In this document: one piece after another, positions 29,149-45,944 of the stretch | Position numbering within the stretch: the stretch's first letter is position 1 | How the letters are laid out: each line of letters begins with the position of its first letter | NCBI RefSeq assembly: GCF_900100255.1 | Contig: NZ_FMTS01000004.1 | Location: 248,001-312,000 of the forward strand | Reading direction: 5' to 3' | Source: Asticcacaulis taihuensis | Lineage (GTDB): Bacteria; Pseudomonadota; Alphaproteobacteria; Caulobacterales; Caulobacteraceae | DNA: 64,000 nt | Program-made: the position numbers and the translations under genes | Notes under the pieces: model-generated | The model's database searches: none | What the model saw: only the letters and a program-made list of their open reading frames with translations | What the model was told of the DNA's origin: nothing

Positions 29149-29733
29149 TCAGTAGGTGGAGAGGAATCTCTGAGCAGATCCCTGGCTCTTAAATTTCTGC
29201 TGCTTTCGCTCTCGTCGCCGGATCGGCAAATGGCTATTCTCAGCCCGGTTATTGCCGAGTGATCCGCCGGTGCGATGCCGCGCTGAAATGCCCAGTTTCG
29301 TCATGGCGACACGGTATGAACCCAGCTTATCGGTCGTCACGGATTGGGGCTGGATGCCTTGATTTTTTGGCAGTCTCCGCAATAACTTATAGGCTGCGTG
29401 GGCGTTGCGGCGCTTCTGAACCAGGACATCCAGAACCTCACCTTCATCATCAACGGCCCGCCACAAATACATCCGCCTGCCGCTGATCATCATCATTTCG
29501 TCGAGATGCCATCGGCCCGACGACTGGCCTTTGCGAGATCTCAAATTGCTGGCGATGAGAGGTCCGAACTTAATCGTCCACATCCGGATCGTTTCGTAGC
29601 TGACCTCAATTCCGCGCTGAGCCAGCAATTCTTCGATGTCACGTAAACTTAAAGTGAAACGGAAATACAGCCAGACGGTATATCGGATGACCTCGGGCGG
29701 GAACCGATGGCGCTTAAACGACAAGCCCTGCAT
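29149..29733 (-). pseudogene. IS6-family transposase, C-terminally truncated
   Basis: The frame encodes 194 residues of an IS6/IS26-type DDE transposase: FKRHRFPPEVIRYTVWLYFR at the start, RWHLDE (first Asp), TTDKLGSY (second Asp) and NNRAENSHLPIRRRER (Glu). Intact relatives are about 235-255 residues and continue past RFLST with a conserved tail; here the frame stops at RFLSTY, so the last 40 or so residues and that IS end are gone. Upstream, the outer end probably lies near 29801, where GGTGCTGTCAG reads inward, but the partner repeat is missing and cannot confirm it. It marks the left border of the nitrate-respiration island. Confidence 0.85.
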
Positions 29734-29891: not shown

Positions 29892-30578
29892 TCAGAAGTT
29901 GCGAAATTGGATATTCAGCCTCTTCCTGGAAATATCCGTCAAATCCAGTCGCGTCGATGGCGCTTGCAGATTGCCAAGCGTCGGCCCCATCCGGAAATTT
30001 TGCAGGATGAATGTCCCCCGAAAACCGATGTCCTCCAGGAGGCTGATCATCGCCTCAACATCGGCGCGATCAAGCAGGTCGGCGTGGATCGTGGTCCGCA
30101 CTTCGTTATTTATCGGCGCCGCCGTCAAAAGCCTGAGCGAACGCAGAAACTCGGTCCATCTGGTCATACCGGTAACCGCCTCGAACTTCGCTTCCGGCGC
30201 CTTGAAATCCAGGGCGATAAAATCAACCAGACCCCCATCCAGAAGCCGCTCCAGCATGTCGGGATTGGTGCCGTTGGTATCGATCTTGACCTTGAAATCG
30301 AGGTTCTTCAGGTATTTCGCCAACTGCGGCAGTGCCGGCGACAGCGTGCATTCGCCGCCCGACAGGACAACCCCTTCCAGCCGGTCCCGGCGCGAAGCCA
30401 GGAACCGCTGGATTTTCTCCGCCGGCAGCTTGGCCAGTGTGCCCTTCACCAGCTCCGGATTATGGCAATAGCCGCACGCCATATTGCAGCCGGAAAACCA
30501 CAGGATGCAGGCCGTATGCCCTGGATAGTCCTGGAAGGTGAAGGGCGTCAGGCCGGTGATGGGCAGTTTGCGCCACAT
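29892..30578 (-). CDS. nrdG: Anaerobic ribonucleotide reductase activating protein
   Basis: A 228-residue radical-SAM activase that installs the glycyl radical on NrdD. The cluster-binding motif CNMACGYC (C31, C35, C38) fits the CxxxCxxC pattern. GEC follows in LSGGECTLSPALPQL, with TNGTNPDMLERLLDGG and a partial barrel. Its N-terminus GLTPFTFQDYPGHTACILWFSGC is typical of the longer NrdG-type activases. The start lies 4 bp beyond the nrdD stop, so the two are co-transcribed and probably coupled. It uses reduced flavodoxin or a similar donor and works only without oxygen, which matches the island's theme. Confidence 0.93.
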   Translation of the reverse strand: MWRKLPITGLTPFTFQDYPGHTACILWFSGCNMACGYCHNPELVKGTLAKLPAEKIQRFLASRRDRLEGVVLSGGECTLSPALPQLAKYLKNLDFKVKIDTNGTNPDMLERLLDGGLVDFIALDFKAPEAKFEAVTGMTRWTEFLRSLRLLTAAPINNEVRTTIHADLLDRADVEAMISLLEDIGFRGTFILQNFRMGPTLGNLQAPSTRLDLTDISRKRLNIQFRNF

Positions 30579-30582
30579 GGCC

Positions 30583-32574
30583 TTAGCCTGCCGCCTCGCC
30601 GCGGAACAACGGCAGGTTGGACGCCCCTTCCCGGAAATGCAGGCGTTCCTTGTGCTCGCCTTTCTTGCCGAGATTGAAGCTGGCGACCGGCCGGTGATAA
30701 CCCATTACCCGCGTCCAGACGAGCGTCTCTTTGTGACAAGTGGGGCAGTGCGCCTGTTCGCCGGCGAGATAGCCGTGGGTTTCACAGACCGAAAACACCG
30801 GCGTGATGGTGATATAGGGCAGCCGGTAATTCTCGATCACCTTGCGCACCAGACACTTGCACGCCTCGCCCGACGAGATGCGTTCGCTCATATAGAGATG
30901 CAGCACCGTCCCCCCGGTATATCTGCATTGCAGGTCGTCCTGCAGATCGAGGGCTTCAAACGGGTCTTCGGTAAACCCGACAGGCAACTGGCTGGAATTG
31001 GTGTAATAGATGTTGTCATCGAAGCCGGCCTGGAGGATGCCGGGGTAATATTTTGCGTCCTCCTTGGCGAAGCGGTAGGTCGTGCCTTCCGCCGGCGTGG
31101 CCTCCAGATTGTAGAGATGGCCAGTCTCTTCCTGATAGACCTTCAGGCGGGCACGCATGACATCGAGAATATCCTGGCACAGGGCAATGCCGCGCGGGTC
31201 CGTAACGTCATAGGCGTCGCCGGTAAAATTGCGCACCATCTCGGTCATGCCGTTGACACCGATCGTGCTGAAATGATTGCGGAAGTGCGGCAGATAACGG
31301 CGCGTATAGGGATAGAGACCACGATCATACATCTCCTGCACGAAGACTCGTTTCTTCTCCAGCGAGGCCCGCGCTAGGTCCATCAGCCTGTCGATTTCGG
31401 CCAGCAGGCCGGGCCTGTCGCCTTTGAACCGGTATCCGAGACGCGCCATGTTAAGCGTCACCACCCCGATGGAACCGGTCATTTCGGCCGACCCGAACAG
31501 GCCATTGCCGCGCTTTTGCAATTCGCGCAGGTCCAGTTGCAGCCGGCAGCACATGCTGCGCACGGCATGGGGCGCATAGGCGTCCGGATTGGGTTCCCGC
31601 TCGCCATCGGCATTGAGCCGGTACTGGCTGCCGATGAAATTCTGGAAGTAGGAACTGCCGATCTTGGCGGTATTTTCAAACAGGGCCGCCGCCACCGGGC
31701 TGTCCCAGTTGAAATCCTCCATGACATTTACAGTCGGGATCGGAAAGGTGAAGGGCTGGCCCTGCGCATCGCCTTCGGTCATCACCTCATAGTAGGCGAT
31801 CACAATCTGCTCCATTTCAGGCTGGAAATGGATATAGGTCATGTCTTCGAGCGCCGCCGCGCCCCTGCGCCTGGCCTCGGCCAGAAGGTCCGGGTCTTCG
31901 AGGCCCTTGAACAGGTGGAGCGTGTCGGCTGTCGGGAAGTTGTCGCGCAGGTCCGGCGGCACGGTAATATCCAGGGTGATGTTGGTGAAGGGACTTTGCC
32001 CCCAGCGCGCCGGCACGTTCAGATTATAGACAAAGCTTTTGATAGCCTTCTTGATGTCATTGAACGACAGGCGGTCTTTGAAGACATAGGGTGCCAGATA
32101 GGTATCGAACGAACTGAAAGCCTGGGCACCGGCCCATTCCGATTGCAGGATGCCGAGGAAGTTGGCCATCTGGCCCAGCGCTTCGCGGAAATGCCGCGGC
32201 GCCCGGCTGGCCACCTTGCCCGGAACGCCATTGAAGCCTTCATCCAGCAGGGCGCGCAGGCTCCAGCCGGCGCAATAGCCGGTCAGGCAGTCCAGGTCGT
32301 GAATGTGCAGATCGGCGCGCCGATGGGCGTGGGCTTCTTCGGGGCCATACACATGGTCCAGCCAGTAATTGGCAATGATTTTCCCCGCCGCATTATTGAT
32401 CAGGCCGGCATTGCTGTAGGCGGTATTGGCATTGGCGTTCACCCGCCAGTCCTGCCGCAGGATATATTCCTCGACCGTCTGCTTACAGTCGACGAGACCT
32501 TCGGGGATACCCGACCCAGAGCGGGGAGAAAACAGGAAATCAAGGGGGCGCAGTGCGCTTTCGCCGTCAGCCAT
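30583..32574 (-). CDS. nrdD: Anaerobic (class III) ribonucleoside-triphosphate reductase
   Basis: This 663-residue glycyl-radical enzyme makes dNTPs without oxygen. The ATG at 32574 follows GGAGG; a longer frame upstream overlaps promoter elements. Glycyl radical Gly is about residue 625 in RVMGYHRP, followed by FNLGKKGEHKER. A zinc site lies just before (CETHGYLAGEQAHCPTCH). HIHDLDCLTGYCAGWSL and SSFDTYLAPYV belong to the catalytic barrel. The chain begins at the barrel entry (PEGLVDCKQTVEEYILRQDW) with no room for the usual N-terminal ATP-cone, so dATP feedback control through that domain is probably absent. An FNR-like box and a TATATG -10 element precede it. Confidence 0.93.
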   Translation of the reverse strand: MADGESALRPLDFLFSPRSGSGIPEGLVDCKQTVEEYILRQDWRVNANANTAYSNAGLINNAAGKIIANYWLDHVYGPEEAHAHRRADLHIHDLDCLTGYCAGWSLRALLDEGFNGVPGKVASRAPRHFREALGQMANFLGILQSEWAGAQAFSSFDTYLAPYVFKDRLSFNDIKKAIKSFVYNLNVPARWGQSPFTNITLDITVPPDLRDNFPTADTLHLFKGLEDPDLLAEARRRGAAALEDMTYIHFQPEMEQIVIAYYEVMTEGDAQGQPFTFPIPTVNVMEDFNWDSPVAAALFENTAKIGSSYFQNFIGSQYRLNADGEREPNPDAYAPHAVRSMCCRLQLDLRELQKRGNGLFGSAEMTGSIGVVTLNMARLGYRFKGDRPGLLAEIDRLMDLARASLEKKRVFVQEMYDRGLYPYTRRYLPHFRNHFSTIGVNGMTEMVRNFTGDAYDVTDPRGIALCQDILDVMRARLKVYQEETGHLYNLEATPAEGTTYRFAKEDAKYYPGILQAGFDDNIYYTNSSQLPVGFTEDPFEALDLQDDLQCRYTGGTVLHLYMSERISSGEACKCLVRKVIENYRLPYITITPVFSVCETHGYLAGEQAHCPTCHKETLVWTRVMGYHRPVASFNLGKKGEHKERLHFREGASNLPLFRGEAAG

Positions 32575-32621
32575 GGAAACCTCCAGAATCAAAATATGGA
32601 CACAGTGTTTGCGCAAACCAC

Positions 32622-32660
32622 CATATATTGACACGAAAGCCTGACATTGATCCCTGTCAA
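32622..32660 (-). promoter_or_regulatory. FNR-like box and -10 element of nrdDG
   Basis: TTGATCCCTGTCAA (32647-32660) matches the FNR/Dnr consensus TTGAT-N4-ATCAA with one mismatch. TATATG on the minus strand at 32622-32627 forms a plausible -10 element 29 bp from the box centre. This is the class II layout (box near -40) expected for activation by an FNR-type protein. Confidence 0.75.
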
Positions 32661-32733
32661 ACAGGCAGGTGACATTCTCGGACGAAGCCGCAAGAGCGCG
32701 CAGGACAGGCGGGCAATTGCCCTTTCACCCGGC

Positions 32734-32765
32734 AAAAAAAGTGCCCGCATAAAAGCGGGCACTTT
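32734..32765 (-). terminator. Intrinsic terminator of the alternative oxidase gene
   Basis: Perfect 11-bp arms (32738-32748, 32755-32765) enclose six bases. On the minus strand the stem is followed directly by seven T (32734-32740). It lies 20 bp beyond the oxidase stop and insulates nrdD from read-through. Confidence 0.9.
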
Positions 32766-32785
32766 AACGACAGACCGGGCCGGTT

Positions 32786-33490
32786 TCAGGCGGCTTCTTT
32801 GCGGGAAAGGCCGACGATTTCGAGATCGTGCTCAGGATAAGGGGCGATCACCTGTCCGGCGGGGGCTACGCCTTTCAGCTCGTTGGAGAAGCCATGGTTG
32901 ACGTCACGATGGTGAGCCTCGTCGGCACGCACCAGCAGTACAACGTCCCGCAGGGTGGCATTGGCCGGCATCTTCCAGTAGCGCAGGGCGATCGCCGGCG
33001 CCGGCACATTGGCGCTGCGCCCTTCATCGATCTCCGCCAGATAGTGCGTATAGCTGATGACCGCCTCCTCCTCGAAATAGCCGACCACGCGGTGCGCGGT
33101 TTTCGCCGAGACGAGGTACAGAAGGAAGAAGGCGACATAGAAGACCCACTGAACCGCGATGATGACAAAGCGCTCGAACAGGGTCGGCCGGGCGATCTCG
33201 ACGAAGGTCATCAGGTGCATACGCTCGTTTTCGGCCTCCTCCATCAGGGTCCGGATCCAGCCATTGTCATCGGTCATACGGCGCAGGCACTTCAGGTGAT
33301 TGATCGTGGCACCGACCATGCCGGGGACCGCTGCCACCGTTTCGAGCACAACGGCGCGATGACCATAGCGCTTTGCGAAGAAGGTGTCGGCGCAAAAACG
33401 CAACAGCTTGGTGAAGCCCAGGGCGAAGTGATCAGAAAAGCCACGAGGCTTATGGTGGACGGACAGGTCGATGAAAAGTTCGTTGGTCAT
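32786..33490 (-). CDS. aox: Alternative oxidase (di-iron ubiquinol oxidase)
   Basis: A 234-residue monotopic membrane oxidase that passes electrons from ubiquinol to oxygen without pumping protons. All di-iron ligands are visible: Glu50 in [10 protein letters not shown], Glu89 and His92 in NERMH, the Glu run at 140-142 in [13 protein letters not shown], and Glu191/His194 in [12 protein letters not shown]. The Tyr residues near the site (YTHY) are kept. The N-terminal regulatory Cys region of plant enzymes is absent, as in other bacterial forms. An ideal FNR-like box lies 120 bp upstream, and a strong terminator follows the gene. AOX resists nitric oxide and cyanide, so its presence beside nitrate reductase and NO-tolerance genes suggests respiration during nitrosative stress at the oxic/anoxic edge. 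Confidence 0.93.
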
Positions 33491-33609
33491 GTCAAACTCC
33501 TGAATAACATGACGTTTGTATAGAGGCTACCGAACCGCCGCGCATTGACATAAAAGATACGCGGCCGGCAAGATCGTCAATCCAAAGATCGCAATTCTTG
33601 ACGCCGGAA

Positions 33610-33623
33610 TTGATATTTATCAA
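33610..33623. promoter_or_regulatory. Ideal FNR/Dnr box TTGATATTTATCAA
   Basis: The sequence matches TTGAT-N4-ATCAA exactly. It is 120 bp upstream of the aox ATG and 289 bp upstream of moaD. Which direction it serves is not settled; no clear -10 at class II distance is visible for aox, so activation from a farther position or repression is possible. Confidence 0.75.
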
Positions 33624-33727
33624 TTATTTGACGCCCCAAACCCGGAAGCGCCTGCTTTTGCCGGCAATCAGCATAAGACCCTGTGCCGCGCCAGGTCTGG
33701 CTCGATCATTTGCCGGGCTGCGCAGGC

Positions 33728-33741
33728 TTGATATTCGTCAA
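33728..33741 (+). promoter_or_regulatory. FNR-like box TTGATATTCGTCAA upstream of moaD
   Basis: This is a one-mismatch match to the FNR consensus, 171 bp upstream of the moaD ATG. A CATATG element about 35 bp downstream could serve as -10. Confidence 0.6.
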
Positions 33742-33911
33742 ATCTGGCGCTGATCACAAAATGGCGCCCGACATATGTCAACCGCCCGCCCCAAATGCCT
33801 GTGCGGTCGGCTTGATCCTCTTTAATGCCGGCCTGTCAAAACAGGCCATATTGCGCGCATCTCGCCGCGCGGCACACGGGCAGCCTGCACATCACACTTT
33901 TTTGGAACACC

Positions 33912-34160
33912 ATGATCGATATTCTGTTTTTTGGCCGCATGGCGGACCTCATGCGGGAACGACGCGTACGCCTCGACCTGACCGATGCCCACGGCAGCCT
34001 CTTCCGGCTTCGGGAAGAGATTTTCCAGGATTTGGTGGACAGTGGAAGGATCACGCCCGGCCTGATCCGCATGAGCGTCAACCAGGTGGTGACGCACAGT
34101 GATCAGCCTCTGTCCGATGGCGACGAGGTTGCCTTCTTTTCGGTATTCTCAGGTGGCTGA
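33912..34160 (+). CDS. moaD: Molybdopterin synthase sulfur-carrier subunit
   Basis: An 82-residue beta-grasp protein that donates sulfur for molybdopterin synthesis after thiocarboxylation of its C-terminal Gly. The chain begins MIDILFFGRMADLMRERRVR and ends FSVFSGG, with the required Gly-Gly. The middle has GLIRMSVNQVV and LSDGDEVAFF, the usual MoaD/ThiS signature. I use ATG 33912; the upstream frame to 33825 lies in the hairpin-containing leader. It stands alone on the plus strand, and its stop is 8 bp from the end of the convergent carbonic anhydrase-like gene. It supplies cofactor for NarG together with moaA and moaB in this island; moaC and moaE must be elsewhere. Confidence 0.88.
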   Translation: MIDILFFGRMADLMRERRVRLDLTDAHGSLFRLREEIFQDLVDSGRITPGLIRMSVNQVVTHSDQPLSDGDEVAFFSVFSGG

Positions 34161-34168
34161 GGCGTGGT

Positions 34169-34813
34169 TTAAGGCGCCGTCATCATGTCCGCCGACGCCG
34201 CACTGGCTCTTCTCGATGGGCGCGGCGTTCTGGGGCCGGCAATGCCGGGATCCCTCAGCAGGCCATCCCGCGCCGACCACATAGCCCCGTCGATCTTGAG
34301 GCTGCCCACTGCCAGGCGTGCCTCGACCAACGGATGTTCAGCCAGGTTGCGGACCTGCATCCGGACATTCAGTTCACACAGGGTCTGGATCTGCGCCTCC
34401 TCGCTGACGATTTCGTCAAGCTGGCGCCGGTGCTGCCGGAACAGGCTGCGGATGGGGCTGGACCAGTAGTCGGCCGCGCCCAGCGCCTTGCCGCGCAGGA
34501 CATGCCTGAGGCAATGGCAGCCATAGTGACCGCACACGACAATGCGCTCGATCTGAAGGCTGTCAATCGCATAGGCGAGCGTTGCCAGCAGGTTTGCATC
34601 CTGCGCCGAAACCTGATTGCCGAGATTTCGGTGGACCAGGCAGCCCTCCCTGCCGAAGGGGGCGATTTCCAGCGATGAATGCGGATTATCGCTGCAGCCG
34701 ATCCATAAGATGCGGGGATCAGGTGTCTTGCCGATGCCGGTGAAAACGTGCGGGTCCGCCTGTGTCTGTTCGGCGACCCAGGCCAGGTTTTTCCTGAAGA
34801 TCGAACTGCTCAT
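34169..34813 (-). CDS. Beta-carbonic-anhydrase-like protein with altered active site
   Basis: A 214-residue protein of the beta-carbonic anhydrase fold. The zinc ligands are in place: C40 in LWIGCSD, H96 and C99 in VVCGHYGC. Typical neighbours VHRNLGNQV and DANLLATLAYAIDSL are kept. However, the catalytic dyad motif CSDSR reads CSDNP: Asp42 remains but the Arg that orients it is Pro44. That Arg holds Asp in the active state in known enzymes, so ordinary CO2 hydration may be weak or lost. The ATG overlaps the hemerythrin stop (ATGA), so the two are coupled. It ends the long nar operon. It could buffer bicarbonate, or be a zinc protein with another small-molecule role. Confidence 0.8.
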   Translation of the reverse strand: MSSSIFRKNLAWVAEQTQADPHVFTGIGKTPDPRILWIGCSDNPHSSLEIAPFGREGCLVHRNLGNQVSAQDANLLATLAYAIDSLQIERIVVCGHYGCHCLRHVLRGKALGAADYWSSPIRSLFRQHRRQLDEIVSEEAQIQTLCELNVRMQVRNLAEHPLVEARLAVGSLKIDGAMWSARDGLLRDPGIAGPRTPRPSRRASAASADMMTAP

Positions 34814-35361
34814 TCCTTTACTCCGTCGAGAAGACGCCCGCGACGCGCGGCCAGGCGCGCGCTCAGGGCCTGAAGGTCGCAAGCTTGCAGGCGCAGCCGC
34901 GCTATCGGCAGGATGACGGCATTTTCCAGCGCGATATGCTTACGCTCATGCACCGCGAATTCGGTCAGAAGCGTTCGCAGCCCCGCATTCAGGGCCGGAG
35001 ATTTCCGCTCTGACCGCGCTCTGATCAGGGCCGCCAGCAGGGTGGAGACCCGGTCGCCATCCGACTGGTGTTCGCCACTCAGGACACCGAGCACATGTTC
35101 GAGATCATCATCGGGCACCGCGCGCCGGCGAAGCAGCGGAAACAGGTCCTCCTCTTCATCCAGCACATGCAGCGGCATGTCATGTTCCAGAAAGGCGATG
35201 ACCTCGTTCATGCCCTCTTCGTTATAAGCCGCCGCTGTCGCCAGGCTGTCGATAAGCCGGCACAATTGCCGGTGACGGTAATGTTCGGCGAACAGCCAGT
35301 TCAGCGGCTCGTGAATCAAGGAGTCCGGCAGCTTTTCGATTTCCGTTTCCTGAGCGTCCAT
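34810..35361 (-). CDS. Hemerythrin-type (HHE) non-heme di-iron protein
   Basis: A 183-residue four-helix bundle. Iron ligands follow the HHE pattern: His27 (FAEHYRH), His60 with Glu69/70 (LEHDMPLHVLDEEEDLFP), His98 (LSGEHQSDGD), and His138/His142 with Glu146 (AVHERKHIALENAVILP). The ATG at 35361 has GGAGACACAG upstream. It is the eighth gene of the nar operon, 41 bp after the PpiC-like gene, and overlaps the carbonic anhydrase-like gene by four bases. Such proteins bind oxygen or NO or guard iron sites. Here it may scavenge NO formed from nitrite or protect the Fe-S-rich reductase. Confidence 0.88.
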   Translation of the reverse strand: MDAQETEIEKLPDSLIHEPLNWLFAEHYRHRQLCRLIDSLATAAAYNEEGMNEVIAFLEHDMPLHVLDEEEDLFPLLRRRAVPDDDLEHVLGVLSGEHQSDGDRVSTLLAALIRARSERKSPALNAGLRTLLTEFAVHERKHIALENAVILPIARLRLQACDLQALSARLAARRGRLLDGVKE

Positions 35362-35402
35362 AACTGTGTCTCCAGATAATTAGCAGCCAGAGCCATAAAT
35401 CA

Positions 35403-36482
35403 TCAGGCTTTCCTGATGAGGGAGAAGGTCTTCCTGGCTGGCGTCAGGCGCTTTTTCAGAACGCAGGTCACGCTGGCCAGCAAGGGGTCTTCCGCGCCCT
35501 GGGCGGCCGATACGAGCTGGGTAAAGGACTCGTCATCGGCATTATCCAGGAAATCGCGCACCTCATGCCGGATAAAGTCGGCAACGGAGGCGCCCTTGAG
35601 ATCGGCGGCGGCCGCCACCTTGTCCGCCAGTTCCGGGTCGACAGCGGCCAGCCACGGCGCGATCCGCCCGGCCAGGGTGTCGTCATCGATCATGGCGCCC
35701 AGGGAAAGGCTTGGCCGTTCGACCTGGCCAGCCTCACCCATGCGCAGGGCGATGCCTTGGCTGCGGGCCGCCTCGACGAGCGTTTCGACATATCGGGCCG
35801 ACGCGGCGATCCATGCGCGGCTTTCCAGATGCATCCGGATACGGTCCCGCACGGCTTCATAGGGCAGCCGCTGGCGCGCCACCCGACGGTCCAGCCGCAG
35901 GATATGCCAACCGAAACGCGAAGCGACCGGTTCGGGATAGATGGCGCCCACGGGCATGGACAGCAGGGTTTCCTCGACCTCAGCCACCAGATCGCCGATC
36001 TGCAACTGGCCCAGCGAACCCCCGACCTCCGCCGAGGGACACTGCGACAGCGCCCTGGCCAGGCCTTCAAACGCAGTGGGTTCGCCCAGAAGCTGCTTCA
36101 CCAGGTCGAATGCCACATCGCGCGCCGATTCCTGGATAAGGATGTGCGAGGCTTCGTAAAGTTCGGGCGTGAAGAAGTGCTGGGGCCGGGCGTCGAAGAA
36201 GCGCCGGCATTCCGCCTCCGTCGGCGCGGCCGGGGTCAGCTCGCGGGCAAAGAGCTGACGGATCAGCGCCTCCTCGGTGGTTTCTATCCGGCCGCTGTCA
36301 TCGCTTTCCGGCGCTGGTTCAAGTCCCAGTGCCGACGCCCGGTTCAGCAGCAGCGCCTTGACGGCCAGGGCATGGGCCGCCTGTTTGTGCGCCTCGGCCG
36401 AGGTCGGTGCGGGATGGTTCGGCATCTCCTCACGGATCAGTTTTTCGGGGATTTCCACCCCGTCTATGACAAAAACGTCCAT
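35403..36482 (-). CDS. PpiC/parvulin-type peptidyl-prolyl isomerase of the nar operon
   Basis: A 359-residue protein with an N-terminal helical chaperone-like part, a parvulin domain at about residues 105-215 (LYEASHILIQ, FEGLARALSQCPSAEVGGSL, LGQLQIGDLV, YPEPVASRFGWHILRLDRR) and a C-terminal helical extension. It lacks a signal peptide, so it acts in the cytosol, as NifM does for nitrogenase. It begins 4 bp after narI. A parvulin at this place is known in several narGHJI operons and probably assists folding or maturation of the nitrate reductase subunits. The C-terminal extension (ADKVAAAADLKGASVADFIR) has no family I can name. Confidence 0.85.
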   Translation of the reverse strand: MDVFVIDGVEIPEKLIREEMPNHPAPTSAEAHKQAAHALAVKALLLNRASALGLEPAPESDDSGRIETTEEALIRQLFARELTPAAPTEAECRRFFDARPQHFFTPELYEASHILIQESARDVAFDLVKQLLGEPTAFEGLARALSQCPSAEVGGSLGQLQIGDLVAEVEETLLSMPVGAIYPEPVASRFGWHILRLDRRVARQRLPYEAVRDRIRMHLESRAWIAASARYVETLVEAARSQGIALRMGEAGQVERPSLSLGAMIDDDTLAGRIAPWLAAVDPELADKVAAAADLKGASVADFIRHEVRDFLDNADDESFTQLVSAAQGAEDPLLASVTCVLKKRLTPARKTFSLIRKA

Positions 36483-36486
36483 AAGC

Positions 36487-37194
36487 CTATCTCCGCTTGG
36501 GTTGCGTCATATCGCGGCGGGTGCGCACAAGCTGCCAGCCACGACGGTTGAGATACCAGACCGGCGCCGACAGCATGTGGACCAGGCGGGTGAACGGGAA
36601 GACCAGCAGGATGGTCATGCCGAGCAGCAGATGCGCCTTGAAGACCAATGACACATCGCGGACATAGGCCGCGGCGCCGCCCTGGAAGCTGAATATGCCC
36701 TGCGCCCAGGTCATGAATTTCACCATTTCGCTGCCGTCGAGATGCTGAGCGGACACAGGGATGGTGGCCAGGCCGAGGCAAAGCTGAACGGTCAGAAGCG
36801 CCAGTATGGCGATATCGGCAAAACTCGATGTCTTGCGGATACGAGCATCAAACAGGCGCCTGTGCAGCAGCAGCAGTGCCCCCATCAGTCCGAATACGCC
36901 GGCAATGCCGCCGGCGATCATGGCCAGCAATTGCTTGGCCATGTGCGGCACGCCGAAATATTCAAAGACGGCGATCGGCGTCAGCAGACCGACGAGATGG
37001 CCGACGAAAATGACCAGTATGCCGAGATGGAAAAGCACCGATCCGGCGACGAGCTGCTTGCGGCGCAGAAGCTGAGACGAGCCCGAACGCCAGGTATATT
37101 GCTCGCGGTCGAAGCGCAGGATCGAGCCCAGAGCCAGCACCGACAGGGCGATATAGGGATAGACCCCGAACAGGAGGTTATTGACGGTTTCCAT
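36487..37194 (-). CDS. narI: Respiratory nitrate reductase gamma subunit (cytochrome b)
   Basis: A 235-residue membrane cytochrome that takes electrons from quinol and passes them to NarH. Five membrane helices are visible, with heme-ligand histidines in FHLGILVIFVGHLVG and VFKAHLLLGMTILLVFPFTR (also LVHMLSAP). I place the start at ATG 37194, eight bases after GGAG; a GTG at 37200 overlapping the narJ stop is the alternative. It follows narJ directly and precedes the PpiC gene, in the usual GHJI order. Quinol oxidation here makes ubiTUV-derived ubiquinol the natural donor under anoxia. Confidence 0.93.
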   Translation of the reverse strand: METVNNLLFGVYPYIALSVLALGSILRFDREQYTWRSGSSQLLRRKQLVAGSVLFHLGILVIFVGHLVGLLTPIAVFEYFGVPHMAKQLLAMIAGGIAGVFGLMGALLLLHRRLFDARIRKTSSFADIAILALLTVQLCLGLATIPVSAQHLDGSEMVKFMTWAQGIFSFQGGAAAYVRDVSLVFKAHLLLGMTILLVFPFTRLVHMLSAPVWYLNRRGWQLVRTRRDMTQPKRR

Positions 37195-37196
37195 GA

Positions 37197-37895
37197 TCAC
37201 GCTCCTCTGGCGATAGCGGGTTTAGGGGGGACGCGCATGGCCTCAACCAGCGCTTCGGCCTTGGGACAGCCAGCCTCGCCGGGCCCGAAGGTCACCGCGC
37301 TTTCTTCCCAGGTCTTGTCGAGCGCTTCGAGATCGTCAGGATCCTGTTCCGGTTCCGCCAGCAGGGCGGCAACCACGCCGGCTTCGGCGCGCACACCGGC
37401 CAGGGCCACGAGGCTGTCGAAGACCGCCTGATAACGGCTGTCGCGCTTCTTCAGCCGGACCGCCATGGCTTCGAGCACATGCACGGCCTCCCCAAGGAAA
37501 GACGCCGCCTCGGCCTGAGGCAGAATCGACAGGAACTCCAGGAATACCGGCAGAAAATCAGGCAGCTCATTGGCATCGAGCTCAAGCCCCCGGCTGCGGT
37601 ACAGCTCAAGCAGGGCAACCATCGCCTGGCCGCGTTCACGGCTTTCGCCGTGGACATGCTCATAAAGATTGAGCGAAAGGGAGCGCGTGCGGTCGAAGAT
37701 ATCGATATAGCACTCCTGAAGGTCGTAAAGGTCGTCCGCGGCGATTTCGGCGATCAGGGCGTCAACCGCCTTGCGGTTTGCCGCCGGCAGGAGATTTTCC
37801 TCGCGCAATACCTGCGAAATAGCCCCGACGGTCTCCTTGACCGCCGGGGTCGGGTAGGACAGCAGGCAGGCCAGTCCTCGATATGTAAGGGCCAT
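37197..37895 (-). CDS. narJ: Nitrate reductase assembly chaperone
   Basis: A 232-residue cytosolic chaperone of the TorD/NarJ family that holds NarG until the molybdenum cofactor and Fe-S clusters are in place. Typical text includes YRGLACLLSYPTPAV, ECYIDIFDRTRSLSLNLYEH, HGESRERGQAMVALLELYRS and ELPDFLPVFLEFLS. The all-helical composition and length fit the family. It starts 3 bp after the narH stop and ends against the narI start. Confidence 0.95.
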   Translation of the reverse strand: MALTYRGLACLLSYPTPAVKETVGAISQVLREENLLPAANRKAVDALIAEIAADDLYDLQECYIDIFDRTRSLSLNLYEHVHGESRERGQAMVALLELYRSRGLELDANELPDFLPVFLEFLSILPQAEAASFLGEAVHVLEAMAVRLKKRDSRYQAVFDSLVALAGVRAEAGVVAALLAEPEQDPDDLEALDKTWEESAVTFGPGEAGCPKAEALVEAMRVPPKPAIARGA

Positions 37896-37898
37896 GGC

Positions 37899-39422
37899 TT
37901 ACGCCTCCTTCACTGTGGGCACGGCGGCCGGTTTCTTGATCTTGCCGAACAGGCCGAACTCGGTCTGGCCGCCGGAACAGCCATTGCCGAAGGTGAAGCC
38001 GCACGACCCGCGCAGGTCATAGGCATCTTCCGCCGCCTCGCGGTGCGTGGTCGGGATGACGAAGCGATCCTCGTAATTGGCGATCGCCATGATTTTATAC
38101 ATGTCCTCGACCTGGGCGACCGAGAGTCCAACCTTTTCAACCAGGGGCACGTCGATGCGGCCTTCGATCGTCTTGGTGCGCATGTAGCAGCGCATGGTCA
38201 TCATGCGTTGCAGGCCGGTGATCACCGGGGCCTCAACGCCGGCCGTCAGCAGGTTGGCCAGGTATTTGGCCGGGATGCGCAGCGAATGGACATCCGGCAT
38301 TTCGCCGTCCATTTCCAGCGCGCCCGCCGAGGCCGCAGACTGGATCGGCGACAGGGGCGGCACATACCAGACCATCGGCAGGGTGCGGTATTCCGGGTGC
38401 AGCGGGAAGGCGATTTTCCAGTCCATCGCCATCTTGTAGACCGGACTGTGGCGCGCGGCCTCAAGCCAGGCTTCGGGGATGCCATCGAGGCGCGCCTGGG
38501 CGATCACCTTCGGGTCATGCGGATCGAGGAAGACATCGAGCTGGGCCTGGTAAAGGTCTTCATCCGGCACCGAAGCCGCCGCTTCGATCCGGTCGGCGTC
38601 ATAAAGCAGGACGCCGAGATAGCGAATGCGACCGACGCAGGTTTCCGAGCAGACCGTCGGCAGGCCGACCTCGATGCGCGGGAAGCAGAAGGTGCATTTC
38701 TCCGACTTGCCCGAACTCCAGTTGTAATAGATCTTCTTGTACGGGCAGGCCGAAACGCACATGCGCCAGCCGCGGCATTTGTCCTGGTCGATCAGGACGA
38801 TGCCGTCTTCCTCGCGTTTGTAGATGGCGCCGGATGGGCACGCCGCGACGCAGGCGGGGTTTAGGCAGTGCTCGCACAGGCGCGGGAGGTACATCATGAA
38901 GGTGTTCTCGAATTCGCCGTACATGGCTTTTTCGATGCCTTCGAAATTGTAGTCCTTCGAGCGCTTGGAAAATTCGCCGCCGAGGATTTCCTCCCAGTTC
39001 GGGCCGCGCTCGATCTTCTCCATGCGTTCGCCGGTGATCTTCGAACGCGGACGCGCCGTCGGGAACGCCTTCAGTTCGGGCGCCGTTTGTAAGTGGCCGT
39101 AATCAAAATCGAACGGCTCGTAATAGTCGTCGATTTCCGGCAGGTCGGGGTTGGCGAATATCTTCGACAGGATGCGCCATTTGGCGCCCATGCGCGGTTC
39201 GATCTTACCACTGGCCTTGCGTACCCAGCCGCCGTTCCACTTTTTCTGGTTCTCCCACTCTTTGGGATAGCCGACGCCAGGCTTGGTCTCGACATTGTTG
39301 AACCAGGCGTATTCGACGCCTTCGCGGTTGGTCCAGACGTTCTTGCACGTCACGGAACAGGTATGACAGCCGATGCACTTATCGAGATTGAGCACCATGC
39401 CGATCTGGGCACGTATCTTCAT
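37899..39422 (-). CDS. narH: Respiratory nitrate reductase beta subunit (iron-sulfur)
   Basis: A 507-residue cytosolic electron-transfer subunit with four Fe-S clusters. The first Cys group is CIGCHTCSVTC with C16, C19, C22 and C26. Later groups are CEHCLNPACVAACPSG, CRGWRMCVSACPYKK (with Trp in place of one Cys, marking the 3Fe-4S site) and CTFC with CSETCVGR. The ATG at 39422 overlaps the narG stop in an ATGA junction, which decides the start over a longer upstream reading. It links NarI hemes to the NarG active site. Confidence 0.96.
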   Translation of the reverse strand: MKIRAQIGMVLNLDKCIGCHTCSVTCKNVWTNREGVEYAWFNNVETKPGVGYPKEWENQKKWNGGWVRKASGKIEPRMGAKWRILSKIFANPDLPEIDDYYEPFDFDYGHLQTAPELKAFPTARPRSKITGERMEKIERGPNWEEILGGEFSKRSKDYNFEGIEKAMYGEFENTFMMYLPRLCEHCLNPACVAACPSGAIYKREEDGIVLIDQDKCRGWRMCVSACPYKKIYYNWSSGKSEKCTFCFPRIEVGLPTVCSETCVGRIRYLGVLLYDADRIEAAASVPDEDLYQAQLDVFLDPHDPKVIAQARLDGIPEAWLEAARHSPVYKMAMDWKIAFPLHPEYRTLPMVWYVPPLSPIQSAASAGALEMDGEMPDVHSLRIPAKYLANLLTAGVEAPVITGLQRMMTMRCYMRTKTIEGRIDVPLVEKVGLSVAQVEDMYKIMAIANYEDRFVIPTTHREAAEDAYDLRGSCGFTFGNGCSGGQTEFGLFGKIKKPAAVPTVKEA

Positions 39423-42400
39423 TGACCGGCCTCCTTCTTGCTGAGTTTCTTTTCGAGCCAGTCGATTTTCTTCATCTTCCGCACGACGACGCATTCGTCG
39501 CGGTTGGAACCGACCGTGCCGTAATAGTTGAAGCCGTAGGCGAGCTGGGCATAACCGCCGATCATGTGGGTCGGCTTGGGCACTACACGCGTGACCGAAT
39601 TGTGGATGCCGCCGCGCTGGCCGGTGATCTCCGATCCCGGCGTGTTCACGATCTTCTCCTGGGCGTGGTACATGAAGATCGTGCCTTCCAGCATCCGCTG
39701 CGAGACGACCGCTCGCGCGGTCAGCGCCCCGTTGGCGTTGAACACCTCCACCCAGTCGTTATCCTCGATCCCGACCTTGCGGGCGTCGGTTTCCGACAGC
39801 CAGACGACCGGGCCGCCCCGGTTGAGGGTCAGCATCATCAGGTTGTCGGAATAGGTCGAGTGAATGCCCCATTTCTGGTGCGGCGTAATGAAGTTGAGGA
39901 CGATTTCCGCCTCGCCATTGCTTTTCTCGCCCTTGACCCAGGTCGTTTTCAGGTCGACCGGCGGCTTGTAGACACACAGGCCCTCGCCGAAGGCCCGCAT
40001 CCACAGATGGTCCTGGTAGAGCTGCTGGCGGCCGGTCAGGGTCCGCCATGGGATCAGTTCATGGACATTGGTATAGCCGGCATTGTAGCAGACGTGCTCG
40101 CTCTCGATGCCCGACCAGGTGGGCGACGAAATGATCTTTCTCGGCTGGGCCACGATATCGCGGAAGCGGATCTTTTCGTCCTCCTTCGGCAGGGCCAGGT
40201 GATCGTGCTTGCGGCCGGTCTGCTTTTCGAGCGCCCGCCACGACTTGACCGCGACCTCGCCATTGGTTTCCGGCGCCAGCATCATGATCGCCTCGGCGGC
40301 ATCGATATCGGTTTCGATGCGCGCCAGCCCTTCGCTGATGCCTTTTTCCGTTACCCGACCATTGAGATCCTTCAGTGCGTGAACCTCGTGTTCAGTGTTC
40401 CAGGCGATGCCCTTGCCGCCATTGCCGGTCTTTTCCAGCAGGGGGCCAAGCGAGGTGAAGCGCTTATAGAGATTGGGATAGTCACGCTCGACAACCGTGA
40501 CCTGCGACATGGTCTTGCCGGGGATGGGCTCGCATTCGCCTTTATACCAGTCCCTGACGTCGAACGGCTGGGCCATTTCGCCGGCCGTATCGTGCTGGAT
40601 CGGCGTCAGGACCACATCCTTTTCCAGGCCCAGCACTTCGGGGGCCACGGCCGAAAAGGTCTTCGCCAGCCCCTTGAAGATCGCCCAGTCTGAGCGTGCT
40701 TCCCAAGCCGGATCGACCGCCGCCGTCAGCGGGTGGATGAAGGGGTGCATGTCCGAGGTATTGAGGTCGTGCTTTTCGTACCAGGTCGCCGTCGGCAGGA
40801 CGACATCGGAATAGACCGCCGTGGTCGACATGCGGAAATCGAGGGTCACGAGCAGGTCAAGCTTTCCCTCCGGCGCATGATCGTGCCAGACGACATCCTT
40901 CGGCTTCTGCTTGCCGGTCTGGCCCAGATCCTTGCCCTGCACGCCGTGGCTGGCGCCCAGCAGGTGCTTGAGGAAATATTCATGCCCCTTGCCCGATGAT
41001 CCCAGCAGGTTCGAGCGCCAGACAAACATGTTGCGCGGCCAGTTGACCGGATTGTCCGGGTCCATGCAGCTCAGTTTCAGCGAGCGGTCCTTCAGTGACC
41101 TAGCGACATAATCCTTCGCATCTATGCCCGCCTCGGCGGCCTGCCGCGCGATCTCCAGCGAATTGGTTTCCAGAGCCGGCGCCGAAGGCAGCCAGCCCAT
41201 GCGCTCGGCGCGGACATTGTAATCGATCAGCGAGACGTTCCAGTCGCCTTCCGGCGCGGTCGGCGACAGGAGTTCGCTGGCCGATACGGTTTCGTAACGC
41301 CACTGATCGGTGTGGGCATAGAAGTAGGAGGTGCCGTTCTGCTGGCGCGGCGGCTTGGCCCAGTCGGTGGCGAAGGCGATCGGCGCCCAGCCGGTCTGCG
41401 GCCGCAGTTTTTCCTGGCCGACATAGTGCGCCCACCCGCCACCGGACTGCCCGACGCAGCCGCACATGACCAGCATGTTGATGACGGCGCGGTAGTTCAT
41501 GTCCATGTGGAACCAGTGGTTCATCGCCGCACCGATAATGACCATCGACTTGCCGTTGGTCTTTTCGGCATTGGTGGCGAAACCGCGCGCCACAGCGATG
41601 ATCTTGTCACGCGACACCGTGGTGATCTTTTCAGCCCAGGCCGGCGAATAAGGCTGCGGGTCATCGAAATCCGTCGGCATGTAGTCGCCGCCGAAGCCCT
41701 GGTCGACGCCGTAATTGGCGAGGAACAGGTCGTAGACGCTGGCGACGACCGCCTCGCCTTCCTTCAGTTGCATCCGCTTGACCGGCACGTTGCGCACCAG
41801 CACATCCGGATGGTCGGTCGAGGCGAAACCATTGCTGGCCGAATTGGCGAAATACGGGAAGCCGACACCGGCGACCTCATCGTGCGCGCCCTTCAGACCC
41901 AGGCGCAGGCGGGTCTCAGCGCCGTTGGCGGCCTTTTCTTCGAGGTTCCATTTGCCATCCTCGCCCCAGCGGAAGCCGATCGAGCCCAGCGGCACCACGA
42001 CCTGCCCGGTCGTTTCGTCTATGGCGACCGTCTTCCAGTCGGGGTTATTGGCTTCGTCCATGTCACCGATAAAATCGGAGGCGCGCAGCAGGCGTTCCGG
42101 GATCAGGTAGCCATCCTTCTTCACCAGGCGGACCAGCATCGGCATGTCGGAATATTTGCGCAGGTAATCGCGGAAATACGGCACCTGGCGATCCTGATGG
42201 AACTCTTTCAGGATCACATGACCGAAGGCCATGCCGAGCGCCGCGTCCGTGCCCTGTTTGACCGCCAGCCAGATGTCGCCGAACTTCGACGCTTCCGAAT
42301 AGTCAGGGCAGATGACCGCCGACTTCACGCCCTTGTAGCGGGCCTCGGTGTAGAAATGGGCATCGGGCGTGCGGGTCTGCGGCACGTTCGAGCCCCACAG

Positions 42401-43150
42401 CAGCAGGAAGCCGGAATTATACCAGTCGGCCGATTCCGGCACGTCGGTCTGTTCGCCCCAGGTCTGAGGGGAAGACGGCGGCAGGTCGCAATACCAGTCA
42501 TAGAAGGAGCCGCAGACCCCGCCCAGCAGTTGCAGATAGCGGGCGCCGGCGGCATAGGAGACCATCGACATGGCCGGGATCGGCGAGAAGCCGAACACGC
42601 GGTCGGGGCCATAGCGCCTGACGGTATAGGCATTGGCGGCGGCGATGATCTCGTTGACCTCATCCCAGTTGGCCCTGACAAAACCGCCGGCGCCGCGCAT
42701 CTTCGTATAGCTGTCGCGTTTCTTCGGGTCGCGCTGGATCGATTCCCAGGCCGCGACCGGCGCCAGCTTCGCCCTCGCCTCACGCCACAGCTTCAGCAGC
42801 CGCGAGCGGACGAGCGGGTATTTCACGCGGTTGGCCGAATAGAGATACCAGCTATAGCTGGCGCCGCGCGCGCAGCCGCGCGGTTCGTGGTTCGGCAGGT
42901 CCGGCCGGGTGCGCGGATAATCGGTCTGCTGAGTTTCCCAGGTGACGATCCCGCCCTTGACGTAGATCTTCCACGAGCACGAACCGGTGCAGTTCACGCC
43001 GTGGGTGGAACGCACGATCTTGTCGTGGCGCCAGCGGTCGCGGTAGGCTTCCTCCCAGGTGCGGTCGTCGTCATTCAGGACGCCGTGCCCGCTGGAGAAC
43101 AGTTCGGTCTTGCGTTTGAAAAAGGCGAGACGGTCAAGAGTATGGGACAT
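39419..43150 (-). CDS. narG: Respiratory nitrate reductase alpha subunit (Mo-bisMGD)
   Basis: A 1243-residue catalytic subunit that reduces nitrate to nitrite at the cytosolic face. The His50-coordinated FS0 cluster motif is HGVNCTGSCSW (H50, C54, C58), with the last Cys at 93. The molybdenum ligand Asp is residue 222 in YDWYCDLPPSSPQTWGEQTD, the same number as in the Escherichia coli enzyme. Length and motifs are of the membrane-bound NarG type, not periplasmic Nap. There is no Tat signal, only the NarG-type SHTLDRLAFFKRK opening. It follows narK2 by 3 bp and overlaps narH by four bases. Confidence 0.97.
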   Translation of the reverse strand: MSHTLDRLAFFKRKTELFSSGHGVLNDDDRTWEEAYRDRWRHDKIVRSTHGVNCTGSCSWKIYVKGGIVTWETQQTDYPRTRPDLPNHEPRGCARGASYSWYLYSANRVKYPLVRSRLLKLWREARAKLAPVAAWESIQRDPKKRDSYTKMRGAGGFVRANWDEVNEIIAAANAYTVRRYGPDRVFGFSPIPAMSMVSYAAGARYLQLLGGVCGSFYDWYCDLPPSSPQTWGEQTDVPESADWYNSGFLLLWGSNVPQTRTPDAHFYTEARYKGVKSAVICPDYSEASKFGDIWLAVKQGTDAALGMAFGHVILKEFHQDRQVPYFRDYLRKYSDMPMLVRLVKKDGYLIPERLLRASDFIGDMDEANNPDWKTVAIDETTGQVVVPLGSIGFRWGEDGKWNLEEKAANGAETRLRLGLKGAHDEVAGVGFPYFANSASNGFASTDHPDVLVRNVPVKRMQLKEGEAVVASVYDLFLANYGVDQGFGGDYMPTDFDDPQPYSPAWAEKITTVSRDKIIAVARGFATNAEKTNGKSMVIIGAAMNHWFHMDMNYRAVINMLVMCGCVGQSGGGWAHYVGQEKLRPQTGWAPIAFATDWAKPPRQQNGTSYFYAHTDQWRYETVSASELLSPTAPEGDWNVSLIDYNVRAERMGWLPSAPALETNSLEIARQAAEAGIDAKDYVARSLKDRSLKLSCMDPDNPVNWPRNMFVWRSNLLGSSGKGHEYFLKHLLGASHGVQGKDLGQTGKQKPKDVVWHDHAPEGKLDLLVTLDFRMSTTAVYSDVVLPTATWYEKHDLNTSDMHPFIHPLTAAVDPAWEARSDWAIFKGLAKTFSAVAPEVLGLEKDVVLTPIQHDTAGEMAQPFDVRDWYKGECEPIPGKTMSQVTVVERDYPNLYKRFTSLGPLLEKTGNGGKGIAWNTEHEVHALKDLNGRVTEKGISEGLARIETDIDAAEAIMMLAPETNGEVAVKSWRALEKQTGRKHDHLALPKEDEKIRFRDIVAQPRKIISSPTWSGIESEHVCYNAGYTNVHELIPWRTLTGRQQLYQDHLWMRAFGEGLCVYKPPVDLKTTWVKGEKSNGEAEIVLNFITPHQKWGIHSTYSDNLMMLTLNRGGPVVWLSETDARKVGIEDNDWVEVFNANGALTARAVVSQRMLEGTIFMYHAQEKIVNTPGSEITGQRGGIHNSVTRVVPKPTHMIGGYAQLAYGFNYYGTVGSNRDECVVVRKMKKIDWLEKKLSKKEAGQ

Positions 43151-43153
43151 GGT

Positions 43154-44563: not shown

Positions 44564-44575
44564 TGGTGCGTCTCC

Positions 44576-45907
44576 TTAAGACTTGGCGGCGGGCGCCTGG
44601 CCCATGCCGACCAGTTCAGGCAGTTCGGGAAGTGTGGACATGCCGGGAAAACGGGCCTGCTCCATGCGGCGGATGGCGAAATGCATCCACAGAAGCGCCG
44701 AGCCGACCAGGACGAACAGCAGCATGAAGCAACTGGTCCAGATACCGGTGATGTCGTTGAGGAAGCCGAAGGTGATCGGCAGGATGAAACCGCCAAGGCC
44801 ACCGACCATGCCGACCACGCCGCCGACGGCGCCGACGCGATCGGGGTAATAGACAGGAATGTGTTTGTAGACCGCAGCCTTGCCCAGGCTCATGAAGAAG
44901 CCGAGCACAAAAATGATCATCGTGAAAGGCACCAACCCGGTCGCTATCCGGAAGGCAATGGGGCCCTTTACGCCATCCACCACATAGCTGGCCGACGGAT
45001 AGGCGAGAAGGAAGCAGCAGATGAGGCTGACCCCGAAGGTCAGATACATGACCTTGCGGGCGCCGATCCGGTCAGCCAGCCAACCGCCGGCGGCCCGGAA
45101 CAAAGACGCCGGAATGGAATAGGCCGCTGCGAACAGGCCCGCCGTCCGGACATCCAGGCTGTAAACACCGACCAGGTAATGCGGTAGCCAGAGAGCAAGC
45201 GAAACGAAGCCGCCGAACACAAAGAAATAGTAGAGGGCAAAGCGCCACACCTGCAGGTTCCGCAACGGTGCGAGCTGGGTCAGCATGGGCACGGCCTTTA
45301 CGCCGCTTTTCCGCCGCGACACCAGGTCCGGGTCATCCTTGGTGGTAAAGAAGAAGACGAGCGCCATGACGAAGAGACCAAGAGCCCAGTATTGGGCGAC
45401 AGCGGTCCAGCCGAAGGCGACCATCACCATCGGCGCGACGATCTTGGTGAAGGCCGAACCGATATTGCCGGCGCCGAAGATGCCAAGAACCGTGCCTTGC
45501 CGGCTTTTCGGATAGAAACGCGAAACATAGGCCACGCCCACCGCGAACGACCCGCCGGAAATGCCCACGCCCAGAGCGGCCAGAAGAAATTGCGGATAGG
45601 TGTGGGCAAAGGACAGAAGATAGGTGGCCGCGGCCGCCGCCAGCATGACCAGCAGGTTGACGACCCGTCCGCCAAACTGGTCGGTCCAGACGCCAAGGAA
45701 CAGCCTGACCAGTGAGCCGGTCAGGATCGGCGTGCCGGCCAGCAGGCCGAATTCGGCATCGTTCAGATGGAGGTCCGTCTTGATTTGAATGCCGATGATG
45801 GCAAAGATCGTCCAGACCGCAAAACAGGCCGTGAATGAAAGGGTACTCACCCAGAGTGCGGCAAAGGCGCCCGGTGCGGGTTTGTCGGAAACGGAAACCA
45901 TATACAT
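44576..45907 (-). CDS. Nitrate transporter, NarK1 type
   Basis: A 443-residue MFS protein, first gene of the nar operon. It holds SFTACFAVWTIFAIIGIQIK, RLFLGVWTDQFGGR, GISGGSFAVGVAYVSRFYP (nitrate signature form) and GMVGGLGGFILPITFG late. The composition fits the NarK1 class, thought to import nitrate with protons at first exposure, before antiport by NarK2. The ATG at 45907 follows CAGGGG by about five bases; ATG two codons later is possible. An ideal FNR-like box is 65 bp upstream. Confidence 0.92.
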   Translation of the reverse strand: MYMVSVSDKPAPGAFAALWVSTLSFTACFAVWTIFAIIGIQIKTDLHLNDAEFGLLAGTPILTGSLVRLFLGVWTDQFGGRVVNLLVMLAAAAATYLLSFAHTYPQFLLAALGVGISGGSFAVGVAYVSRFYPKSRQGTVLGIFGAGNIGSAFTKIVAPMVMVAFGWTAVAQYWALGLFVMALVFFFTTKDDPDLVSRRKSGVKAVPMLTQLAPLRNLQVWRFALYYFFVFGGFVSLALWLPHYLVGVYSLDVRTAGLFAAAYSIPASLFRAAGGWLADRIGARKVMYLTFGVSLICCFLLAYPSASYVVDGVKGPIAFRIATGLVPFTMIIFVLGFFMSLGKAAVYKHIPVYYPDRVGAVGGVVGMVGGLGGFILPITFGFLNDITGIWTSCFMLLFVLVGSALLWMHFAIRRMEQARFPGMSTLPELPELVGMGQAPAAKS

Positions 45908-45944
45908 CTACCCCTGAGACAGGCCAATGGTGTTGTCACGGCAG

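Follow-up and report, generated by a model that had tools for sequence, protein, structure and literature searches.

It has long been asked why bacteria retain an oxidase that pumps no protons. For the alternative oxidase (AOX), one of the closest described systems is that of Sphingopyxis granuli TFA, where aox was found to be upregulated 450-fold in anoxia with nitrate by RT-qPCR and was also raised by NO (PMC6472365). In that paper, the gene is placed among those that are probably NO-induced and is described as mainly NO-regulated (PMC6472365). The TFA gene group that includes aox was also expressed even less in a narG mutant than in an fnr mutant, so that NO was probably more important than Fnr. 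The Fnr box of TFA is given as TTGAc/t-N4-g/aTCAA, and FtrB is there likened to the nitrate/nitrite regulator NarR (PMC7713065). Another described case is Vibrio fischeri, whose AOX is tied to the NO response and to the NsrR repressor (PMC1274295, and citations in PMC6472365). AOX is also listed as a low-affinity oxidase, with O2 Km values above the Pasteur point (PMC6431628). Since NO-linked aox induction in nitrate respiration has already been reported for TFA (PMC6472365), the physiology discussed below is not new, and both the AOX enzyme and its role with NO are of known kinds. No report of aox–nar linkage in Caulobacteraceae was found among the literature matches listed. As far as our limited searches show, what is new is an aox gene lying under a nitrate island's own boxes, together with the breadth of regulator exchange around aox.

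The oxidase and its nitrate island

The window, which is the whole 64,000-nucleotide stretch of the Asticcacaulis taihuensis genome that was analysed, contains a nitrate island with the following genes (positions are those of the window):

29892-30578, minus strand: nrdG-type activase (TIGR02495 over cut-off)
30583-32634, minus strand: nrdD, anaerobic ribonucleotide reductase (NCBIfam PRK08270 and NrdD over cut-off; likely ATG near 32574, by reading)
32786-33490, minus strand: aox, di-iron alternative (quinol) oxidase of 234 aa (PF01786; solved AOX homologues)
33912-34160, plus strand: moaD-like gene (ThiS/MoaD; PF02597 on the longer ORF 33825-34160, start by reading)
34169-34882, minus strand: beta-carbonic anhydrase (PF00484)
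34810-35361, minus strand: haemerythrin-domain protein (PF01814)
35403-36482, minus strand: PPIase, in nifM's place in the nar operon (PF00639)
36487-37200, minus strand: narI (TIGR00351 over cut-off)
37197-37895, minus strand: narJ (TIGR00684 over cut-off)
37899-39422, minus strand: narH (ORF, named by reading and position)
39419-43150, minus strand: narG (TIGR01580, 2143.9 bits)
43154-45907, minus strand: two narK-type transporters (43154-44563 and 44576-45907; best models narU/narK, under cut-off)
46236-47012, plus strand: FtrB/NarR-like Crp/Fnr regulator (NCBIfam PRK09392, FtrB, 346.3 bits; cut-off 211)
47009-48127, minus strand: moaA (TIGR02666 over cut-off)
48195-49379, minus strand: nnrS (PF05940)
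49445-51931, minus strand: ubiV, ubiU and ubiT, O2-independent ubiquinone synthesis (ubiU NF047963 over cut-off)
52043-52735, plus strand: RIC/ScdA/YtfE-like Fe-S repair protein (PF04405 and PF01814)

The first-pass annotation had recognized a complete AOX with all of its Glu and His ligands between nrdDG and moaD, and this description was borne out. The aox ORF begins with ATG, is complete, and encodes a protein that scores 283.6 bits against PF01786 (E 1.3e-84; Pfam cut-off 22.7), with residues 11-203 aligning to three solved mitochondrial AOX chains (3vv9, 9kun and 9m2a; E 2e-52 to 4e-52). Using the positions that we take to be the di-iron ligands of trypanosome AOX, the six ligands (four Glu, two His) can be read from the alignment as E50, E89, H92, E140, E191 and H194, all of which are invariant among six aligned AOX sequences of the genus. 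Both the score and the six ligands thus place the protein in the AOX family. It is an ordinary, probably active AOX that would oxidise ubiquinol with O2 without pumping protons, and it would presumably be NO-resistant. No other AOX was found in the genome (3.97 Mb, 19 contigs searched).

Every neighbour of aox had also been said to serve anoxic life, which does not hold for the beta-carbonic anhydrase, a gene without such meaning. For narH, stretches of 92-99% identity occur in three other genomes of the genus (G010, G022 and G017), each beside narG. The names ubiV and ubiT were given by position, the Pfam domains being Peptidase_U32 and SCP2. The RIC/ScdA-like protein scores 222.7 bits with the YtfE model and 201.4 bits with RIC, both under cut-off. 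A moaB gene, named by reading, belongs to the island beyond it. Next to moaB, at the right edge, is an IS-like element (named by reading) with perfect 27-nt inverted repeats at 53559-53585 and 54848-54874, and a transposase-like gene, also named by reading, occupies 29149-29733 at the left edge.

As for other oxidases, the only COX1-family genes in the genome are ctaD (aa3) and cyoB (bo3). The PF00115 model behind this count presumably also catches subunit I of cbb3 oxidases, and it does match NorB at a representative locus from a relative. A PF00115 search of the genome found no NorB, the NO reductase by which a denitrification cluster would be recognized, and no flavohaemoglobin passed the cut-off, there being two weak partial matches. 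One cytochrome bd is encoded. Cytochrome bd is NO-tolerant in other bacteria, and thus AOX need not be the sole escape.

FNR-type boxes and their likely reader

Seven FNR-type boxes occur in the island, as follows:

32647-32660, minus strand: box TTGATCCCTGTCAA, upstream of nrdD
33610-33623, minus strand: perfect FNR-type box TTGATATTTATCAA (also entered as TTGATAAATATCAA), TTGAT-N4-ATCAA by pattern match, upstream of aox
33728-33741, plus strand: second box TTGATATTCGTCAA in the aox/moaD divergent gap, closer to moaD
45972-46181, no strand given: three boxes (starts 45972, 46087 and 46168) in the narK/ftrB gap
48180-48193, minus strand: box TTGATGAATGTCAA, between nnrS and moaA, upstream of moaA

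The ideal box that had been reported upstream of aox is indeed a perfect match, centred at -126.5 bp from the aox ATG. In the whole genome (3,967,832 bases), the pattern TTGAYN4RTCAA occurs at 26 sites and a reversed control pattern at two. Seven of the 26 fall within 32647-48193, a 15.5-kb interval picked post hoc, where 0.10 would be expected (binomial p ~9e-12). Besides single sites at nrdD and between nnrS and moaA, the seven include two from the aox/moaD gap and three from the narK/ftrB gap. This clustering is not chance, and the aox promoter carries one of these above-chance sites. By eye, the spacer reads ATTY in four of the seven (those of aox, moaD, moaA and one in the narK/ftrB gap) and in none of the other 19; AT-rich gaps may be a partial cause of this common spacer. 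A link of the 48180 box to nnrS was considered and dropped because the site is upstream of moaA. A one-mismatch box at 6186 of the window lies outside the island and is absent from the genome pattern set.

Wide conservation of the box was not found before orthologous aox genes. The sister genome (G017) alone keeps it, as one of six other loci in the genus. In an aligned stretch between an ftrB-like gene and aox, G001 has a degenerate box, TTAACAAAAATCAA, at -108.5 with one mismatch to the Y/R pattern, and G020 has another, TTACCAAAGATCAA, at -106.5 with two. No box within two mismatches of TTGAT-N4-ATCAA was found in the 400 bp searched at the aox genes of G009, G010 and G024, the start of the last having been set 15 bp inside the gene. 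Among 79 of the best 80 AOX loci (G001, G009 and G010 included; 350 bp each), a perfect box occurs in two, and five (those two among them) have a box that deviates at no more than one position; mononucleotide shuffles gave 0.0 and 0.75, respectively.

Control by a classical FNR was not supported. Neither a classical ([4Fe-4S]) FNR nor a FixK was found in the genome, which encodes three cNMP-domain proteins: a 605-aa protein with a patatin-like look (by reading), the island FtrB, and a Crp-type protein on contig C16 (L150:5117-5875). The last of these has several Cys and is matched best by the NCBIfam FtrB model at 66 bits (cut-off 211), with Fnr at 42 bits. PF13545 finds four matches in the genome, FtrB alone being strong. 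The first 100 residues of FtrB contain no Cys, so it is not a classical FNR. In G001 and G020, an ftrB-like gene with 68-69% identity to the island FtrB lies directly beside aox, and no narG was found in G020; a gene of this type is present in one of the 80 nearest AOX loci (L026, the G001 locus). Thus, an FtrB-type regulator occurs both in the island and next to aox in some relatives. Four Rrf2 matches were recorded in the genome, none on the window's contig, and three are over cut-off. With none of these three having NsrR as its best model, NsrR control looks unavailable. Taken together, the lack of N-terminal Cys, the NarR likeness, the aox-adjacent homologues and the want of an NsrR-best Rrf2 protein over cut-off favour FtrB, and the island FtrB/NarR-like protein is the likelier activator at the aox box. 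The inducing signal could be either low oxygen or nitrate/NO.

A separate six-box cluster lies on C16:134001-154000 (L150 positions 3375, 4959, 7500, 9534, 14015 and 17807), with mostly GC-rich spacers. It surrounds the Crp-type gene and genes that, by reading, resemble acetate kinase, universal stress, Hsp20 and sulfide:quinone reductase genes. This may be a second, separate low-oxygen regulon, with cross-talk possible.

aox and its company in relatives

Linkage of aox to the nitrate genes had been proposed as something that relatives should share. Placement of aox 15-33 kb from narG recurs in five mapped genomes of the family, and immediate adjacency was seen only in the window genome and its sister. 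The sister G017 has the same gene order from moaB to nrdG, with a 99% identical aox in one piece. Its ubiV, nnrS, moaA, narG and narJ match in pieces (frame-broken), and its aox, nrdD, narH and narI are whole; the frame breaks are either assembly errors or decay. In G022, nrdG, nrdD, the haemerythrin gene and nar are present, and aox, moaD and the carbonic anhydrase gene are missing between them. Asticcacaulis AC460 (G010) has a similar nar cluster on the 222417-base contig C32 and its aox on another contig. No aox was found in the stretches fetched of the G022 and G010 nar islands. The narG of G010 is split over both ends of C32, which is therefore probably a circular plasmid; the contig carries nar, ubiTUV, nnrS and RIC-like genes. 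In A. aquaticus (G001, L026), an ftrB-like gene, aox and ccoNOP-like genes (by reading) lie together.

In a FastTree tree of 89 of the 90 AOX sources, the window AOX is sister to that of G017 (0.995) within a six-member Asticcacaulis clade (0.90), with G024 outside. No fewer than three kinds of neighbourhood are found among the six genes of this clade, and hence either aox itself or the DNA around it has moved within Asticcacaulis. A transfer of narG and narH was also considered, on the basis of their 92% identity between the window genome and G010 versus 81% for AOX; this is not proof, other island genes being 44-84% identical.

On a broader scale, AOX and narG tend to be found in the same genomes. 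Within the genus, AOX is present in 7 of 25 genomes, narG in 6 and both in 5. Across 390 Caulobacteraceae genomes, AOX occurs in 129 and narG in 74 (E 1e-90 or better; 94 at E 1e-3, and 70 over the model cut-off), with ten partial AOX matches in seven genomes. AOX was found in 50 of the 74 genomes with narG versus 79 of the 316 without it. These counts (both 50, narG only 24, AOX only 79, neither 237) give an odds ratio of 6.25 and p 1e-11 for related genomes that are not independent. Stratified over four genera (321 of the 390 genomes), with strata set by listing ranges from the first to the last listed member, the odds ratio is 4.95; in g13, a large genus, the excess is not significant (5, 6, 18, 37; p 0.32). 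The two genes share a contig in 13 of the 50 genomes that have both, and in 10 of the 13 they are within 50 kb of each other, against 1.4 for random placement. Six such regions were mapped. In five (G318, G102, G346, G324 and G073), aox is 15-33 kb from narG in similar islands that share a set of carbonic anhydrase, haemerythrin, PPIase, nar, narK and ftrB genes (the G324 stretch ends at the PPIase) and contain mixes of ubiTUV, fixLJ, fixK, hemN and globin genes. In the sixth, G293, the distance is 41 kb, and no query family was found between narK and aox.

The immediate neighbours of aox were surveyed at the best 80 of 392 encoding loci, which are 76-82% identical and come from close relatives only. 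ORFs were called by codon usage, which missed AOX in one of 84 sources (L097); a length-based caller was set aside, having recovered AOX in 32 loci only and lost the rest to opposite-strand ORFs. At least one listed NO or low-oxygen family (fixJ alone uncounted) lies within 3 kb of aox in 64 of the 80, and 16 have none. Summed over families and loci, there are 177 matches within 3 kb (459 kb) versus 7 at 6-10 kb (479 kb), a test that is descriptive since the families were partly picked after the clusters had been seen. Within 3 kb, group-III-type globins occur at 38 loci, DUF1971 at 37, Rrf2/NsrR-like regulators at 33, FixL-like proteins at 18, flavohaemoglobin at 17, FixJ-like at 16, hemN at 6 and NorB at 5, with others fewer. 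An nrdD gene was found at none of the 80 loci, either within 3 kb or at 6-10 kb. Of the two neighbours that the first-pass annotation suggested looking for, nnrS does occur near aox in some relatives, and narG (half or more of the gene) was found at 0 of the 80 loci, in flanks of up to 10 kb, many of them shorter.

Query labels for ccoN, narH, moaB, ubiV, ubiT and the transposase were given by reading or position. At representative loci, the globin and DUF1971 assignments are supported by Pfam and that of NorB by Pfam only; FixJ and the flavohaemoprotein pass their cut-offs, and FixL and FixK, although the best-matching models for their proteins, stay under cut-off. The representative Rrf2 protein is matched best by NsrR at 142.7 bits (cut-off 182) with RirA close at 136.2, hence "NsrR-like." In six loci from Brevundimonas and other alphaproteobacteria (L056, L070, L073, L074, L077 and L081), aox is immediately followed by a hemN-like gene, FixLJ-like genes are divergently oriented, and norB/nnrS or fixK-like/ccoN-like genes come next. 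AOX matches were also found in 22 of 72,556 plasmid records; among the 15 rows listed, three Azospirillum plasmid matches overlap an annotated group III truncated haemoglobin gene. These surveys support an association of this AOX lineage with genes for NO and low oxygen.

A possible role, its rivals and described systems

An NO- and nitrate-linked branch had been proposed for this AOX, with a part in keeping electrons flowing to traces of oxygen. The first half of that idea is favoured by the NO and low-oxygen genes at 64 of 80 loci, the co-occurrence with narG and the island boxes. The trace-oxygen half is not, as AOX is listed as low-affinity (PMC6431628), which makes NO-poisoned or re-oxygenated cells the likelier setting. 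We accordingly think it rather probable that AOX is an NO-resistant quinol oxidase held ready for cells that are NO- or nitrite-poisoned, micro-oxic or re-aerated. In this lineage, aox would have come under the FNR-type boxes that also serve the nitrate-respiration genes, read most likely by the island FtrB/NarR-like protein, and would thus be co-controlled with nar. As oxygen falls and nitrate is used, NarGHI would make nitrite and, indirectly, NO, both of which would inhibit the haem-copper oxidases (aa3 and bo3). AOX, which would still work under NO because it has no haem, could then pass electrons from the quinol pool supplied by UbiTUV to O2 when NO-exposed cells are micro-oxic or have been re-oxygenated. 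Its partners would be NnrS and the RIC-like protein, in a genome where neither NorB nor a flavohaemoglobin over cut-off was found. We infer the identity of the regulator, the inducing signal, the NO resistance of this protein and the benefit at oxic–anoxic transitions.

A variant compatible with this reading, to which we give nearly even chances, concerns the signal: aox would be controlled by NO, nitrate or nitrite through FtrB or the C16 Crp-type protein, and anoxia alone would do little. The NarR likeness of FtrB noted for TFA (PMC7713065), its lack of N-terminal Cys, the mainly NO-dependent regulation of the TFA gene (PMC6472365) and the want of an NsrR-best Rrf2 protein all point this way, although the C16 protein, with its several Cys and its own six-box cluster, could be an O2 or redox sensor. 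A different function for AOX would be respiratory protection. It would consume O2 as anoxia sets in, or when oxygen suddenly returns, and so shield the glycyl-radical enzyme NrdD and the radical-SAM proteins NrdG and MoaA, the NO link being secondary. Here aox does adjoin nrdDG, with FNR-type boxes at both, and a non-pumping oxidase can run fast even when the proton gradient is full. Nevertheless, this is unlikely, for nrdD was found at none of the 80 loci where NO-related genes are abundant, AOX is of low affinity (PMC6431628), and the genome has a cytochrome bd. Cytochrome bd is a better O2 scavenger than AOX.

It is also conceivable that a lineage-native aox simply ended up next to an acquired nar island through rearrangement, the two having no function in common. 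The window AOX does group with others of the genus from several contexts (support 0.90-0.93), in G022 nrdD adjoins the haemerythrin gene, with no aox, moaD or carbonic anhydrase gene separating them, and transposase-like genes (by reading) lie on both sides of the island. A passenger of this kind would hardly be expected to have a perfect box in its promoter in an island holding 7 of the 26 genomic boxes, or to recur with narG, and in linkage to it, in other genera; we regard this explanation as quite improbable.

A broader and more tentative proposal would be that alphaproteobacterial AOX is a portable electron escape valve, repeatedly re-wired to the host's NO or low-oxygen regulator (Rrf2/NsrR-like, FixLJ/FixK or FtrB). 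In this Asticcacaulis lineage it might have joined the nitrate regulon to give feed-forward protection, being produced together with NarG before NO appears, in cells where NorB, flavohaemoglobin and NsrR were not found. Across the nearest 80 loci, the neighbouring regulator changes and the NO and low-oxygen company mostly stays, which suggests, for this one AOX group, a testable answer to why a non-pumping oxidase is kept. The window may be a compact case, with NO tolerance, anaerobic quinone supply and nitrate respiration under one box, and since NorB and flavohaemoglobin were not found in the genome, a single deletion could show the benefit of AOX.

Of the described systems, TFA shares several features with this one. 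It has a nar operon with nifM and moa genes and a divergent ftrB (PMC6472365, PMC7713065 and PMC4741004), and nearby gene numbers belong to ubiUV (yhbUV in PMC6472365), fixK and the anaerobic nrd gene nrdZ; its aox responds to anoxia with nitrate and to NO, and its Fnr box has the pattern of the window box. The same sources also show differences. The TFA aox (SGRAN_1792) lies outside the nar-ftrB-ubiUV-fixK-nrdZ island (SGRAN_3844-3862), whereas in the window aox belongs to the island and has a perfect box of its own; and TFA has nsrR, cbb3 and norB, whereas no norB, cbb3 or NsrR-best protein was found here. In V. fischeri, the regulator is the repressor NsrR, in contrast to the FNR-type box and probably Crp/Fnr-type activator of the window; no nsrR gene was found near aox or among the over-cut-off Rrf2 proteins of the A. 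taihuensis genome. The trHb-aox-DUF1971-hmp operons of sphingomonads and Reyranella, with their Rrf2/NsrR-like regulators, share the AOX subfamily (76-82%) and the NO setting with the window but have another regulator and other partners. Finally, the FixLJ-like/aox loci of Brevundimonas, Phenylobacterium and Caulobacter, some with hemN, norB, nnrS or fixK-like genes, and those of further Caulobacteraceae in which nar lies 15-33 kb off, encode the same AOX family with low-oxygen wiring and, in part, the same island genes. They differ in that FixLJ/FixK-like genes lie near aox in several, and aox is not placed between nrdD and nar as it is in the window.
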